Shown here: piece after piece, positions 2,974 through 9,824 of the stretch
Numbering within the stretch: position 1 is the first letter of the stretch
Layout: every line of letters begins with the position of its first letter
Source: a virus
Length of the DNA stretch: 48,008 nt
Reading direction: 5' to 3' (one strand)
IMG/VR virus record: IMGVR_UViG_3300006224_000013
Coordinates: 1 to 48,008 of that record
The notes under the pieces: model-generated
Database searches by the model: none
Told to the model about the DNA's origin: nothing
Seen by the model: only the letters and a program-made list of their open reading frames with translations
Translations under genes and position numbers: made by a program

Positions 2974-3375
2974 TTAGTAGGGGATGTCGTCGGGCAGGTC
3001 GATTGCCGTGCTGTCCACCGCTGCGAGGTCGGCAGCGAGGTCGTCGGCGGTTGTCGTCCAGATGGGCTTGCGTGATACCCCGATTCCCAACGTCGTCTCG
3101 CCGTAGACGTTGGTGAAGTTGCGGACGGTGAGCCCGTGGTTCTCCAAGACGGTCGCGTTGGCAATGAGCTGGCGCACCAGCTCTGCCCGTGCATCGCTGG
3201 GGCTCAACTTGTTGGCGGCAGCGAAGTACTCCGCCATGCTGGCGAAGCGGCGGCTCAGTGGCGTCCGGTCAGCGCTCTGGGTGTCACCCCAGGTCACGTC
3301 CCTGAGGACTCGCGCGTACCCGGTACGCTCGACTCGTAGGCTCCAGAAGCGGAGAACGAACTCGACGAAACCCAT
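2974..3375 (-). CDS. Hypothetical protein with SSB-like acidic C-terminal tip
   Basis: A 133-residue protein whose last residues read AAVDSTAIDLPDDIPY. Bacterial single-stranded DNA-binding proteins end in an acidic tail closing with D-D-I-P-F, which recruits repair and replication proteins, and this tail matches it apart from Phe to Tyr. The body (residues 1-105) is not an obvious OB-fold by eye, though segments such as HGLTVRNFTNVYGETTLGIG look like paired strands. The gene has an excellent ribosome site (AAGGAAGGAG), stands alone, and is closed by a strong terminator, as expected for an abundant DNA-binding protein. It borders the repeat-rich control region. SSB or SSB-mimic is an inference. 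Confidence 0.6.
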   Translation of the reverse strand: MGFVEFVLRFWSLRVERTGYARVLRDVTWGDTQSADRTPLSRRFASMAEYFAAANKLSPSDARAELVRQLIANATVLENHGLTVRNFTNVYGETTLGIGVSRKPIWTTTADDLAADLAAVDSTAIDLPDDIPY

Positions 3376-3426
3376 GGCTCACTCCTTCCTTCGGGCGGAG
3401 GAACTCTCCTCCCGGGCCAGGTGGTC

Positions 3427-4103
3427 TGAACCCCTGAACCACAAAAGAATCAGGTAAGAAAATAAGGCAGCAGGAAGAACTGAAAACCCCAAAGGATGAA
3501 GGTGGTGGCGTTAGGCTCTATGATTACGCTGGAGCTGTCTCGCAATGCTGTACTTTTGCTGCCCTGGCGGACGTGCGGAGGATCAGCGTCTGACTATCAT
3601 CGCGGGGTGGACGGGTCCCCTACCCCCCGGATCCTTGTCTGACTCCCCCGCCCCCTATTGACACTGCAGAACTCTAAAAAATTTTTGGAAAAATGAAAGC
3701 CCTTTTCCTCACCCCGCCACTGGAGAGGAGCGGTTAGACCGTTCCGTGCGCGGGAGCCCCCCAAAGAGGGGCTCTTCAGCAGAGCGGAAAACGCGCCATT
3801 TCTTAATGGTTCACGTGGTTGAACCAGCTGAGGAAATTTTCTCCTCCTAAGTCCTTTCTTTTCAATGTCTTTCTCCCTGGTTCACTCGTTTGAACCAGTA
3901 TGAACCACCCTTTGGGTTCATCTGGGTGGTGCACTTCTTGGTATAAGGCGGAATGAACCACCTGAACCAGGGGCAGAGCCCAATTCCCGGAACTCCTTTA
4001 TTTCCAACGCGTTCCCAACTGGTTCATCTGGTTCACCCCGATGAACCACTTTGAACCAGTGCCCCGCGAAAAGGGCGAACCAGGGGGCTGCAGACGCGAA
4101 CCA
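3427..4103. repeat. TGAACCA / TGGTTCA heptamer array with 20-bp dyads
   Basis: Exact heptamers in either orientation start at 3435, 3807, 3820, 3878, 3891, 3901, 3954, 3963, 4020, 4029, 4042 and 4052; one-mismatch copies start at 3427, 3914, 4076 and 4097. Three pairs form TGGTTCA-N6-TGAACCA dyads (3807-3826, 3878-3897, 4029-4048) and one forms the everted version (3901-3920). Tandem copies are spaced 9 or 10 bases start to start. Constant spacing implies a dimeric or multimeric binding protein. Candidates are a repressor, a replication initiator or the adjacent TerS. Confidence 0.85.
3939..3947 (+). promoter_or_regulatory. Possible extended -10 promoter within the heptamer array
   Basis: TGGTATAAG matches the extended -10 pattern TG-n-TATAAT with one mismatch and points rightward. 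There is no good -35 box, which extended -10 promoters can lack. The predicted start would fall near 3954, exactly on two heptamer copies (3954, 3963), so bound protein would occlude it. Confidence 0.35.
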
Positions 4104-4211
4104 GGAAAACGAGCCCCTTTTGCCGCTTGTCTCTGGTATCTTCGCTTCCGGCATGGGGGGAACCGCGCTTCCTCTTGCATCCTACCCCCTCCTCCACCAT
4201 GCAGGGGGGAG

Positions 4212-4240
4212 TTGTGCGTTTCCTCCATGCCGAGTATTCT
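4212..4240 (+). promoter_or_regulatory. Possible promoter for a leaderless terS transcript
   Basis: TTGTGC (4212-4217) and TATTCT (4235-4240) are 17 bases apart; the match to consensus is modest (3/6 and 4/6). The predicted start of transcription coincides with the ATG at 4247, and that ATG has no ribosome site upstream. Spacing and missing ribosome site agree, but the boxes are weak. Confidence 0.35.
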
Positions 4241-4246
4241 TCTCCC

Positions 4247-4687
4247 ATGGCTGAGGAAAAACCCCCTCCTTCCCAACAACAGCAGAAGAAGGTCGCGGAA
4301 CTGCGCACAGCGCTGATCGCCATTGAAAAGGCGATGGGCCGGAGCGTGAAGGAAATCAGCGAGAAATACCGCGTTTCTCCGGAGGGCGTGAAAAGGGCGC
4401 TGGAACTCGCGACGGAAACCGGCTTCATCGATCACTACCGGGCGTTGCTGTATGACAATCTCGCTCCCAAGGTCCTTGCCGTGTACGAAGCGCATCTGAC
4501 CATGGGATCTTTAGAAGCGGCGCGGGATCTCGCGTTTGGCCTTGGGATTCTCCAGAAGAATGGGGATGCCCAGAAAGTAAAAGGCCGTATAATCGACACG
4601 TTGGACGCGTATCGAGCGGAACGGGCGCGGAAACTGCCCCCGTCTCGTCCAACGGAGGAGATCTCCGATGCTACGGTCATCCAATGA
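4247..4687 (+). CDS. terS: Putative terminase small subunit
   Basis: 146 residues from the ATG at 4247 (MAEEKPPP). The frame is open upstream to 4127, but that stretch looks like the tail of the control region. Small terminases recognise the phage DNA end and regulate the large subunit. Here residues about 34-55 (VKEISEKYRVSPEGVKRALE) look like a helix-turn-helix, followed by a helical segment (LEAARDLAFGLGILQKN) and a basic stretch typical of oligomerising TerS proteins. It is the first gene of the late operon, shortly before the large subunit, the usual place. No signature proves it; a transcription regulator is the alternative. Confidence 0.6.
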   Translation: MAEEKPPPSQQQQKKVAELRTALIAIEKAMGRSVKEISEKYRVSPEGVKRALELATETGFIDHYRALLYDNLAPKVLAVYEAHLTMGSLEAARDLAFGLGILQKNGDAQKVKGRIIDTLDAYRAERARKLPPSRPTEEISDATVIQ

Positions 4688-4862
4688 TCTGACGAGCCAG
4701 CAGAATTTCACGATTCGAGTGCGAAAGCAGCCGGATGGCTCTTTCCACGCCACCACCCCGAACTACCCGAAACTTCCGGCAATCAAGGCTTCCTCAGAGC
4801 AACTCGCGGCAGCGCAGTTGGGAGACCAGCTGCATAAGCTCCACGCGGAAGGAAAGCTCTAA
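4668..4862 (+). CDS. Small protein with HicB-like fold signature
   Basis: A 64-residue protein overlapping the end of the preceding gene by 20 bases, with its stop overlapping the next start. The pattern FTIRVRKQPDGSFHATTPNY followed by a helix (SSEQLAAAQLGDQLHKLHAE) resembles the small alpha/beta HicB antitoxin fold (two strands, a D-G turn, strands, then a helix). No HicA toxin gene is next to it and no DNA-binding domain is attached, so it is probably a structural relative with a phage-specific job rather than a toxin-antitoxin half. Confidence 0.55.
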   Translation: MLRSSNDLTSQQNFTIRVRKQPDGSFHATTPNYPKLPAIKASSEQLAAAQLGDQLHKLHAEGKL

Positions 4863-5749: not shown

Positions 5750-5853
5750 AAAAGCCTTTGCTGCCGAAGCCACGGGTCCTCCCTCAGCGTTTCGTGGAAA
5801 ACGCCGCCCTGAAGAAGACGCTCCAGAAAGACTCCACGAAGAAACTGCGCTGA
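5746..5853 (+). CDS. Very small basic protein (35 aa) before terL
   Basis: Starts at an ATG overlapping the previous stop (ATGA at 5746-5749) and ends on a TGA that overlaps the terL start. The composition is basic (KKPLLPKPRVLPQRF, KKTLQKDSTKKLR). Its existence rests on perfect coupling at both ends; it may serve mainly to pass ribosomes on to terL. No function assigned. Confidence 0.5.
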   Translation: MKKPLLPKPRVLPQRFVENAALKKTLQKDSTKKLR

Positions 5854-7487
5854 TGACAGGGAGAGACCGGATTTCTTTCGAAGAAGCCATCAGCGAGCGG
5901 GCGCTCTTGCGCGTGAGGTTTGAGGAACTCGCCTTCCCGCAGAGGGTCGCGCTGAAGCTCATGTATGGCGTCCCGCTCTCCGCGCGGAACACCGACGAGA
6001 AAACCGGCTTCACGGAGATGGATTTGTGGCGGATCTTCCATGGCGCCTGCGATCGCGATGACCACGGCTTCATCACGAAGATCCATGACACCGGATTCCC
6101 GGAATACAGGCCCAAGGAATATCGGGAAGCGTGGCTGATTGTCGGACGAAGAGCTGGGAAAACCGATGCCTTCGCGGCGACGATCGTGGCCTATGAGGCG
6201 ACCTGCGGCGGGCACGAGCGATTCCTGCGCCCCCGACAGCAAGGCATCTGCTTTCAGATTGCCCAGGATCTCCGGATGGCGCGGAACAGCCTGCATTTCG
6301 TGCGCGCTGTCCTGGAATCCTCGCCCCTCCTCGAAAAGGAGATGGTGCAGATCACGGCGGATCGGATTGACCTGAAAAACCGCTTCACGATCTCCTGCGT
6401 GCCGGCAACGTTGAAGAGCGTTCGTGGCTTCGCGTCTCCGGTCTCCGTCTTGGACGAAGTGGGCGTCTGGTATCAGGAAGCGGAAAGCGCGAATCCGGAC
6501 TATGAAATTTACCGCGCGTTGAGCCCAGGGCAAGTCCAGTTCCCCGATCGCAAGATCGTAGGCATCTCCACTCCTTGGAACAAGGCGGGCCTCCTGTATC
6601 AGTATGCAGAGGCTGGCACTGAAGGATGGAAGCTCTACCACGACGCGCAACGCGAGCAATACCGTGAAGTCCTCGTGATCGTCGGCTCTACTGCGGTCAT
6701 GGGGAATCCCCTCGTCACCAGGGAATTCCTCGTCAGGGAGCGGGAACGCGATGAACGCGCCTTTGAGCGCGAGATCCTCGCGGAGTTCCAGGATTCGATC
6801 TCCGGCTTCATTCCCACTGTGCTCGTGGAGCAGGCCCGCGATCACGACGTGTTCGAACGCCCGTACAACCCCAAGTGGACGTATTACCCCGCGATCGACC
6901 CCGCATTCCGCCGCGACGCCTTTGCGTTCACGATTGTGCACAATGAACAAGGAGTCGTTGTGCAGGATGCCGTGCGGCGATTCATCGCCCGTTCCGGAGA
7001 GGTCCTTTCTCCCGCGGCGATCCTGGATATCCTCGTGCCGCTGCTCTTGGAATACCGTTCCTCTGTGGTCTATTCCGATCAATACCACCTGGAATCCTTG
7101 GGCCAGCTTCTGAGGATGAGAGGAATTGAAATCATTCCTGTCACCTTCACGTCCAAGAGTAAGAGCCAGCTCTTCGGCAACCTCCAGCAGCTCTTCCTGC
7201 AGAAGAAGATCCGCCTTGTTGACGATGGAGAAACGATCCGAGAGCTGAAGAGCCTTGAACGCACGCTCACGGGAGGCGGTTCCGTCCAGATTTCCGCGCC
7301 GCAAGGGCTCCACGATGACATGGCCAGCGTCTTGGCGTTGGCGGTTTCCCAGGCCATGTTCGATGGAGATGGACGGATGCTTCAGGATGTGGCAGGATCC
7401 GCGAAGGAACCGACAGTGCATGAGCGCTGTCTGGAACAAGTCCAGCAGAAGTGGACGGGATTAGGGGCGCTCTCCGCATGGGATTAA
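5853..7487 (+). CDS. terL: Terminase large subunit (ATPase-nuclease)
   Basis: 544 residues, typical for the family. The packaging ATPase has Walker A GRRAGKT at 98-104, Walker B VSVLDEV at 197-203 (D201, E202) and the coupling motif ISTPWNKAG at 238-246. The C-terminal RNase H-like nuclease, which cuts concatemeric DNA, shows its three acidic positions in AIDP (D349), YSDQY (D409) and LHDDMA (D488/D489). All catalytic residues appear present, so the protein should be active. It works at the portal vertex with TerS. The start at 5853 overlaps the preceding stop (TGATG). Confidence 0.95.
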   Translation: MTGRDRISFEEAISERALLRVRFEELAFPQRVALKLMYGVPLSARNTDEKTGFTEMDLWRIFHGACDRDDHGFITKIHDTGFPEYRPKEYREAWLIVGRRAGKTDAFAATIVAYEATCGGHERFLRPRQQGICFQIAQDLRMARNSLHFVRAVLESSPLLEKEMVQITADRIDLKNRFTISCVPATLKSVRGFASPVSVLDEVGVWYQEAESANPDYEIYRALSPGQVQFPDRKIVGISTPWNKAGLLYQYAEAGTEGWKLYHDAQREQYREVLVIVGSTAVMGNPLVTREFLVRERERDERAFEREILAEFQDSISGFIPTVLVEQARDHDVFERPYNPKWTYYPAIDPAFRRDAFAFTIVHNEQGVVVQDAVRRFIARSGEVLSPAAILDILVPLLLEYRSSVVYSDQYHLESLGQLLRMRGIEIIPVTFTSKSKSQLFGNLQQLFLQKKIRLVDDGETIRELKSLERTLTGGGSVQISAPQGLHDDMASVLALAVSQAMFDGDGRMLQDVAGSAKEPTVHERCLEQVQQKWTGLGALSAWD

Positions 7488-7750
7488 CCTCGAAGATCCG
7501 TGATATTCTTGGCTTCAGCGTGATCCTGGAGGAAATGCAGGCGGATCGACGAAGCATGCGGGAGCTGATCGGAGAAATCCTTCGCGTCTCGTCGCTCCAG
7601 GCGGAAACCTCCCTCCGGATGACGTCGGCGCTCGAGCGGATGGTGGGCGCTTATGAAACGGACGGGTCTCCTCCTGAAGGACGGCATATGACCGACGCCA
7701 TGGAAGTGGTCATCCTGGAGCAGGCTGATGAACGGTGGCGAGGAAATTAA
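7478..7750 (+). CDS. Small helical protein between terL and portal
   Basis: 90 residues from the ATG at 7478, overlapping the terL end by ten bases and the portal start by 23. After a short hydrophobic start (LTSKIRDILGFSVIL) it is a long amphipathic, probably coiled-coil helix (MRELIGEILRVSSLQAETSL). The final part (TDAMEVVILEQADERW) is acidic. Unknown family; position suggests a role in packaging or portal assembly. Confidence 0.6.
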   Translation: MGLTSKIRDILGFSVILEEMQADRRSMRELIGEILRVSSLQAETSLRMTSALERMVGAYETDGSPPEGRHMTDAMEVVILEQADERWRGN

Positions 7751-9824
7751 CGAGCTAGCTGAGGAATCGCTCGGCATGCCGCTACCGGACGAGCTTTCCG
7801 AACAGCTCGATTACGAGGCGCTCGCCGCCGAGACGAAGGAAAAGCGTTCCCGCTGGCGAACAGAACGCCAGGTGCATGAACAGGAATGGTTCATCAACGC
7901 GGCGATGTTCCGCGGGAACCAGTACGTGGAATGGGACGACCGGTACAACCGGCTGACCGTGCCGAAGGCGCCACCGCATAGAGTGCGCCTGAAAATCAAT
8001 CGTCTGCAAGCGAAGATCCGTGCCCGACTCTCGAAATTCCTCAAAAACCGGCCGAAGCCCTTCGTGGTTCCTGCCACGAACGAGTATGCGGACTACCAGA
8101 ACGCGAAGGCCACACAGAAGGTCCTCGACTACCTGTGGCGAAAGCTGCGCCTGGAACACAAATACAAGGATGCCCTCCTGTGGGCCATGGTCGCCGGAAA
8201 AGGCTTCTGGTGGTTCCATTGGGACCCGACCGCCATCGCCAGAGTCGTCACCGAGGGAGAAGCTGGTCTGCCCGTGTATACGGATGAACCTCTTGGAGAT
8301 CCTGCCATAGAGGTGGGCAGCCCGTTTGAGGTGCTCGTGGCAGATCCTGGCATCCCCGATATCGGGGATCAGCCTGAGATCATGAGGATCAAGATTCGGG
8401 ATGTGGAGGAGATGCGGCAGCGCTACCCTCAGATTGCGGAGGATATCTCTGCCTCAAAGGGTGAAGAGAGCTATTTCACCTATGAACGCCAGATTGCCGG
8501 GCTGAATCCGTATTCCTACTCCACTGGAGGAAAGGAAGATCAGCAGGATTCTGTGCTCGTGACGGAGCATTTCCTGGCTCCGTGCGGGAAATACCCGAAA
8601 GGGCAATATCGGGTGCTCGTCGGGGACGTGGTGGCCAAGATTGAAAACCAACTGCCCTACGGCTTTGCCGATCTCCCCAATCCATTTCCGGTTGTTGAGT
8701 TCTTCGATATCAAGGTCGCCGGGCAGTACTGGTGCCCCACGGTCTGTGCGCAGCTCATCGACCTGCAAAAAGAATACAACCTCATGCGGTCGAAGCTGGC
8801 GGAGAACCTCCGGCTGATGGCGCACCCGAAGATCATTGTTGCCAAGCAGCATCAGCTGCCGAAGAGCAGCTGGACGTCGGAGGCGGGCGAAATCATCGAA
8901 TACGTGGCGATTCCGAACCTGCCGCCTCCGCAGCCCTGGGTCCCCCCGAACGTGGCGGCAGACCTCTGGCGCAATGTCGAGCTGCTGCAGAAGGAATTCG
9001 ACGACGTCACGCAGATCTTTCCGGCTTCAGAGGGGAAAGTCGGAACCGCCACGAGCGGGTTCCAGACGAATCTCCTGCAGGAAGCCACGGATTCCGTTCA
9101 CGCGCCAGACATTCGCCAGGCAGAGATCACCGTTGAAGAGGCTGCCTTCAAGCTGCGGAGGATGGCCAAGCTCGGCTATGACGTGCCGCGCCTGATTTCC
9201 GCCACGGGGAAGGACTACGCGGCAGAGGTCTTTGAGTTCGTCAACGATCAGATTGATGAAATGGCTGATGTCATCGTGGAGGTGGGCAGCGCCCTCCCCA
9301 CGCTGAAAGCCGCGAAGCAAGACGCGGTGATGAATTTGTTCAAGGTTGGGATGCTTGGGGATCCGGCGGATCCGGCCGTGAGGGCGCGAGGAATGAGCCT
9401 CCTGGAGATGGGTTCTCTGGAAGAAGGCTTTAACTTCGCGAAGACGGATGAAAACCAAGCTCGAATGGAAAACAAGACTCTCGGCACGGGTGCGCCGATT
9501 GACGTCCCGCACTTCTGGGAAAACCACCAGATCCACTACGACGTCCATACGAACATCCTGAAGAGCCCGGAGTCGCAAGCGTGGCCCCCGGAAATCCGGC
9601 GGGCCCTGGTCGCGCACACAATTCTGCATGCGCGATTCATCAACCCCCAGTCTGCGATGCAGGTCGCGATGGAGGAAGGCATTCAAGAGGTGGTCCCAGC
9701 CATTCAGGCGATGCTCCCACCGCCGATGCCTCAAATGCCCGGAGGACCGCCGCAAGGGCCTCCTCCGCCTCCTCCCGGCCCGCCTCCTCCTGACCAAGGG
9801 GGACCACAAGGACCACCCGTATGA
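7728..9824 (+). CDS. Portal protein
   Basis: 698 residues, close to the size of P22-type portals, which form the dodecameric ring at the head vertex through which DNA is packaged and ejected. Recognisable features are the N-terminal helical region with FRGNQYVEW, a conserved GKGFWWFHWDP segment, the LIDLQKEYNLMRSKL helix typical of the stem/crown junction, and ASEGKVGTATSG followed by a long helix. The C-terminus is an unusual proline-rich tail (about residues 655-698, including PPPPPPGPPPP) that is probably disordered. It follows terL and its stop overlaps the scaffold start (ATGA), both expected for a portal. Confidence 0.9.
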   Translation: MNGGEEINELAEESLGMPLPDELSEQLDYEALAAETKEKRSRWRTERQVHEQEWFINAAMFRGNQYVEWDDRYNRLTVPKAPPHRVRLKINRLQAKIRARLSKFLKNRPKPFVVPATNEYADYQNAKATQKVLDYLWRKLRLEHKYKDALLWAMVAGKGFWWFHWDPTAIARVVTEGEAGLPVYTDEPLGDPAIEVGSPFEVLVADPGIPDIGDQPEIMRIKIRDVEEMRQRYPQIAEDISASKGEESYFTYERQIAGLNPYSYSTGGKEDQQDSVLVTEHFLAPCGKYPKGQYRVLVGDVVAKIENQLPYGFADLPNPFPVVEFFDIKVAGQYWCPTVCAQLIDLQKEYNLMRSKLAENLRLMAHPKIIVAKQHQLPKSSWTSEAGEIIEYVAIPNLPPPQPWVPPNVAADLWRNVELLQKEFDDVTQIFPASEGKVGTATSGFQTNLLQEATDSVHAPDIRQAEITVEEAAFKLRRMAKLGYDVPRLISATGKDYAAEVFEFVNDQIDEMADVIVEVGSALPTLKAAKQDAVMNLFKVGMLGDPADPAVRARGMSLLEMGSLEEGFNFAKTDENQARMENKTLGTGAPIDVPHFWENHQIHYDVHTNILKSPESQAWPPEIRRALVAHTILHARFINPQSAMQVAMEEGIQEVVPAIQAMLPPPMPQMPGGPPQGPPPPPPGPPPPDQGGPQGPPV

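Follow-up and report, generated by a model that had tools for sequence, protein, structure and literature searches.

The window, meaning the whole 48,008-nt stretch of viral DNA analysed here (positions 1 to 48,008 of IMG/VR record IMGVR_UViG_3300006224_000013), carries an intergenic array of short repeated sites at 3807–4103, followed by a TerS-like gene that starts at 4247 and by the gene for the terminase large subunit (TerL). Most relatives have a small ORF of about 60–80 amino acids between terS and TerL (4668–4862 in the window and L014:2021–2236). The window does not represent the whole genome, because the contig L004, near-identical to it (99.8% across 9.1 kb), extends past its left end. 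The features of the locus are as follows.

3427–3441, plus strand: isolated tandem TGAACCC-N1-TGAACCA, upstream of a leftward gene, membership uncertain (sequence reading and heptamer count)
3807–3826, no strand: dyad 1, TGGTTCA-N6-TGAACCA (heptamer and dyad scan)
3848–3872, no strand: copy 1 of the 25-bp family element, TAAGTCCTTTCTTTTCAATGTCTTT (profile score 20.8, threshold 8.9; two mismatches to WATCAANNNNTTR)
3878–3897, no strand: dyad 2, TGGTTCA-N6-TGAACCA, beginning 5 bp past element 1 (dyad scan)
3901–3907, plus strand: tandem half-site TGAACCA, 10 bases from the preceding start (heptamer count)
3914–3920, minus strand: near-exact half-site GGGTTCA, everted partner (N6) to 3901–3907 (sequence reading)
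3954–3969, plus strand: tandem half-sites TGAACCA-N2-TGAACCA (heptamer count)
3990–4014, no strand: copy 2 of the 25-bp family element, GAACTCCTTTATTTCCAACGCGTTC, degenerate relative to the IHF consensus (profile score 19.6)
4020–4026, minus strand: half-site TGGTTCA, beginning 5 bp past element 2 (heptamer count)
4029–4048, no strand: dyad 3, TGGTTCA-N6-TGAACCA (dyad scan)
4052–4058, plus strand: tandem half-site TGAACCA, 10 bases from the preceding start (heptamer count)
4076–4103, plus strand: two near-exact half-sites CGAACCA, at 4076–4082 and 4097–4103 (sequence reading)
4247–4687, plus strand: TerS-like gene with an N-terminal HTH, candidate half-site binder (place before TerL in relatives)
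5853–7487, plus strand: terminase large subunit (phrog_2, E = 3.9e-19)

The exact heptamer, TGAACCA or TGGTTCA, occurs 19 times across the window against 3.9 expected, a count reached in 0 of 100 shuffles, and 12 of the 19 copies fall within the 624 bp from 3435 to 4058. The crowding in the 1 kb preceding terS corresponds to a Poisson p of about 2e-19. Reading of the sequence adds four near-exact copies, namely the GGGTTCA and the two CGAACCA listed above and the TGAACCC at 3427–3433. The first-pass annotation had described these twelve exact and four near-exact heptamers, three dyads with an N6 spacer and a tandem spacing of 9 or 10 bases (start to start: 3954/3963, 4020/4029, 3891/3901 and 4042/4052), and all were confirmed; the everted N6 form that it also reported (3901–3920) has one arm that is only near-exact. 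About 370 bases separate the pair at 3427–3441 from the main cluster, and its occurrence may be due to chance. It had been considered that the heptamer might be equally frequent elsewhere or absent in close relatives. The clustering of the copies speaks against the former, and the same array is found in the near-identical contigs L004 and L005, as well as in L006, which is cut at its end. A search of Rfam over 3300–4800 of the window provided no match.

Relatives were gathered by TerL-alignment scans that yielded 37, 23 and 42 mostly overlapping loci, or about 20 distinct relatives; the initial search with TerL had found L007 and three contigs near-identical to the window. The identity of TerL to that of the window falls to about 40% in the family, and the array is located ahead of terS in most relatives with sufficient upstream DNA. 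One relative, L014/L031, was found by the pattern TGGTTCA-N6-TGAACCA-N3-TGAACCA alone, with no protein used for choosing it, and exhibits the gene order of the window (terS, small ORF, TerL and portal), with the TerL of L014 being 41% identical. The array is real and is a family trait. A lone 20-bp dyad was rejected as a marker, as a scan of viral contigs returned at least 120 stretches, those listed with one dyad each; with 14 bases fixed, single-dyad matches are at chance level, and it is the composite pattern alone that carries information. Among cultured phages, S-CBS4 was rejected: its TerL is 27% identical, the genes around its terL are ordered differently, and the gene ahead of terL is preceded by only about 70 bases. 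No relatives were found in genome_contigs, searched as a prophage or host lead.

The words that form the half-sites were taken from enrichment in the 1 kb ahead of terS. The top word is TGAACCA in L031 as in the window, TGTACAA in L020, TGACACA in L021 and L026, TGACAGA in L042, GTGAAAA in L038, TGTCAAA (equivalent to TTTGACA) in L023 and L024, GTGAACAT in L044, TGACAG in L050 and TGACCAA in L019. TGACACA is also the word of L073 by reading, and copies of it are located farther upstream in L029. TGACAC in L037 and TGAAAAG in L041 are enriched without being top-ranked, while the weaker words of L033 and L034 were assigned by eye. No clear word was seen within this 1 kb in L022, L039 and L043, and an array like that of the window is not clearly present in L022 and L043. 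The majority of the words start with TGA. As read from these sequences, distant relatives keep the layout in the same place and differ in the 7-base word. The exact heptamer is thus phage-specific.

The second component of the array, which is constant in the family and was overlooked in the first reading, is a 25-bp symmetric element, TAACTCCTTGATnATCAAGGACTTA. A profile seeded with 16 sites spotted by eye and then refined identified 47 sites, spread over 20 of the 21 upstream regions, compared with 9 matches in the 184 kb that follow terS starts and 1.25 loci in shuffles. Overlap of the regions used for training and for testing makes the upstream count somewhat too high, an excess that is limited by the downstream and shuffle controls. 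Both halves of the profile match the IHF consensus, WATCAANNNNTTR; 19 of the 47 elements match it exactly and 35 with at most one mismatch, the better-matching half being the right one in 22 elements and the left one in 20. Adjacent elements are mostly spaced 69–92 bases apart. The two window elements start 142 bases apart, at 3848 and 3990, and each has two mismatches to the consensus and lies 5 bp ahead of a half-site. The element reads as IHF-like in its family consensus and as degenerate in the window copies.

The half-sites and elements exhibit a fixed geometry, which was examined with half-sites set by enriched words rather than by offsets. A half-site starts 2–6 bp after the element in 23 of 32 cases (null 4.1), 19 of these 23 being in reverse orientation (null 1.4), and a forward, opposite-facing half-site ends 16–21 bp before the element in 15 of the 32 (null 2.1). 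These counts were reached by 0 of 2000 random shifts. Inverted gaps of N6 or N7 and a tandem gap of N3 recur across phages despite the different words. At the level of sequence only, the recurrent layout is a forward half-site, 16–21 bp, the element, 2–6 bp and a reverse half-site. Several relatives also contain a palindromic CCCCTATA...TATAAGGGG or a C-run/G-run stem of about 19–24 bases inside the first half-site pair (L031:1098–1135, L050 and the first unit of L026).

Between a sigma70-like -10 and terS, the window contains a hairpin at 4149–4232 (dG -51.7, z -8.3) with an apical loop that has CCTCCTCC, like an anti-Shine-Dalgarno sequence. A hairpin occupies the same place in most relatives (e.g. 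L031:1364–1447) and is absent in L019. Among L031, L034, L033 and L050, 9 of 27 pairs are changed on both sides with pairing kept, and alignment of the leader hairpin from 12 phages gave no consensus structure. The hairpin may act as an RNA leader element, or it may belong to the DNA site.

The array sits between divergent operons, a sigma70-like -10 follows it in most relatives, L019, L023 and L024 have half-sites in contact with the promoter, and HMM comparison finds the HTH similar to regulators and sigma factors. These features would suit a transcription switch, in which the HTH protein as an autoregulator, or another phage regulator, acts with IHF on the half-sites to control divergent early (left) and terS/late (right) promoters. 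This is unlikely, however, as the distance from the last half-site to the -10 varies (about 30–85 bases by reading), and the many copies over hundreds of base pairs with fixed element phasing are more than one promoter needs. A purely promoter-bound role is further disfavoured because a whole ORF or several hundred bases part the array from terS in L044 and L029. In SPP1 the pac spans the terS promoter (PMC4737164), and a composite site of this kind would combine packaging with terS autoregulation. The terS promoter and leader immediately adjoin the array in most relatives, but insertions occur between array and terS, and a composite site is considered improbable.

The early region to the left of the array encodes a DNA polymerase and AAA ATPases. 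Plasmid origins commonly combine IHF with repeated initiator sites, and a replication origin, with the half-sites as iteron-like sites of a phage initiator and IHF assisting, would agree with both of these points. The half-sites, however, do not have the form of long direct iterons, being short, irregular and inverted, no initiator gene was recognised adjoining the array, and the constant partner of the array is terS. In a 65-kb relative the cumulative GC skew turns at 33 kb whereas the array is at 61–62 kb, and an origin is considered quite unlikely. In the near-identical contig L052, one early-region protein (6469–9150) has uracil-DNA-glycosylase and DNA polymerase A domains, and a Dam-family methylase is encoded at 1882–2379.

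The product of 4247–4687 is called TerS-like mainly because of its position, as the gene directly before TerL encodes an HTH protein in the relatives with enough sequence. Some relatives' TerS proteins match PHROG terminase small subunit families weakly (best E about 1e-4). The window TerS model has a predicted HTH and long helices (monomer pLDDT 72); a Foldseek structure search with it gave no significant match, and an HMM search gave no strong family match for the HTH protein. Left-flank genes were considered as alternative binders and rejected, since none is common consistently to phages of one word.

The group of L031, L034, L033 and L050, with TerL proteins 93–99% identical, bears on the reader of the half-sites. 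In a stretch that starts at the end of terS and continues past TerL, the DNA of L031 and L050 is 95.7% identical, compared with 76% in terS, with no blastn match across the array, and both the array word and the TerS HTH differ. L034 and L033 are similarly diverged from L031 (86.8 vs 85.8%); L031 and L034 have a common helix, AKSTVAKAMS, and a common word, while in L033 (APSTVSRAMS) and L050 (SANTVNRAMS) helix and word both differ from L031. The divergent tract spans array and terS jointly, so either selection for matching or simple linkage may account for the joint change. Across 15 phages, word and TerS helix showed no correlation (Mantel r 0.09, p 0.22), and no residue-base association by mutual information survived permutation (p 0.56). 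A post hoc link between an A in position 4 of the site and an acidic residue in position 3 of the helix (Fisher 0.026, uncorrected) was not relied on, and L041 and L044 have an identical recognition helix with the words TGAAAA and TGAACA. TerS is the most likely candidate for the reader of the half-sites.

The array lies upstream of terS-terL throughout the family, and a layout kept in place by distant relatives, each with its own word, is probably the start site of genome packaging. Phage-specific and IHF-like sites alternate beside terS as in P1 pac and lambda cosB, which makes a packaging-initiation site bound by TerS the best reading. The array at 3.8–4.1 kb is on balance judged to be such a site, be it a pac or the cosB portion of a cos site. 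The first-pass annotation had named a TerS-bound packaging site, an origin and repressor operators as options; packaging fits best, with TerS as binder only a candidate and the IHF-like element having been missed. We infer that the product of the neighbouring terS would use its N-terminal HTH domains to read the phage-specific half-sites (TGAACCA in the window), arranged as inverted N6 pairs and as tandem pairs stepped by 9–10 bases, and that the 25-bp elements between them would be bound by IHF or a related DNA-bending factor. Bending would bring the flanking half-sites together to be held by a TerS oligomer, from which TerL would be delivered. Two weak hints of headful packaging are that several large contigs run through the array and that the portal matches the P22 family.

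It is conceivable, and proposed tentatively, that the array word and the TerS DNA-reading domain are exchanged as a unit between near-identical phages with the IHF-like scaffold kept, perhaps avoiding the packaging of DNA from co-infecting relatives. If true, nature would have supplied in this family matched pairs of TerS and site for studying how the small terminase reads DNA. TerS DNA recognition is still called an unanswered question, and the in vitro binding of TerS proteins from pac phages is mostly weak and shows no sequence preference (PMC9611059). If the array is as it seems, many TerS/site pairs on a conserved scaffold with many repeats per site would make recognition testable by swaps, and packaging specificity may diversify rapidly in uncultured phages.

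Iteron origins and stoperator-type operator arrays consist of repeated initiator or repressor sites. The array differs from them in geometry and in its position at terS, with no initiator or repressor gene associated; in place of the long direct iterons and neighbouring initiator of an iteron origin, it has 7-mers in mixed orientation and a TerS-like neighbour. The SPP1/SF6 pac is similar in having repeats across the small-terminase promoter and gene start, and differs in that the SF6 TerS DNA-binding domain has little sequence preference and that the available part of the source mentions no IHF element (PMC4737164). P1 pac has seven TGATCA/G hexamers and IHF, for which a bent complex was proposed (PMC10028697). 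The array resembles it in several short TGA-type sites in two groups, an IHF-like site and a location at the small-terminase gene, a likeness of layout. P1 pac, however, places its seven hexamers in 161 bp inside pacA and they contain GATC under Dam methylation control, whereas the family has repeated 25-bp elements, often in steps of about 80 bp, and a word that differs between relatives. The array is not classed as a P1-type pac because its half-sites lack GATC and it is outside the gene. Lambda cosB is arranged as R3-IHF-R2, and the specificity of R site and helix differs between phages (PMC4669245). In lambda-type cosB (R3-I1-R2-R1; lambda, 21 and N15) a single IHF site is accompanied within 120 bp by three R sites, longer than the half-sites seen here, and cosN and cosQ belong to the site as well, whereas the family has many 7-base half-sites and usually two or more elements, and no cosN-like or cosQ motif was recognised. 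By inference the array would be likened in its working to P1 pac and lambda cos and filed under neither. With lambda-type cosB it shares, at the sequence level, multiple opposite-facing TerS-type sites inverted around an IHF-like site, directly before the small-terminase gene.
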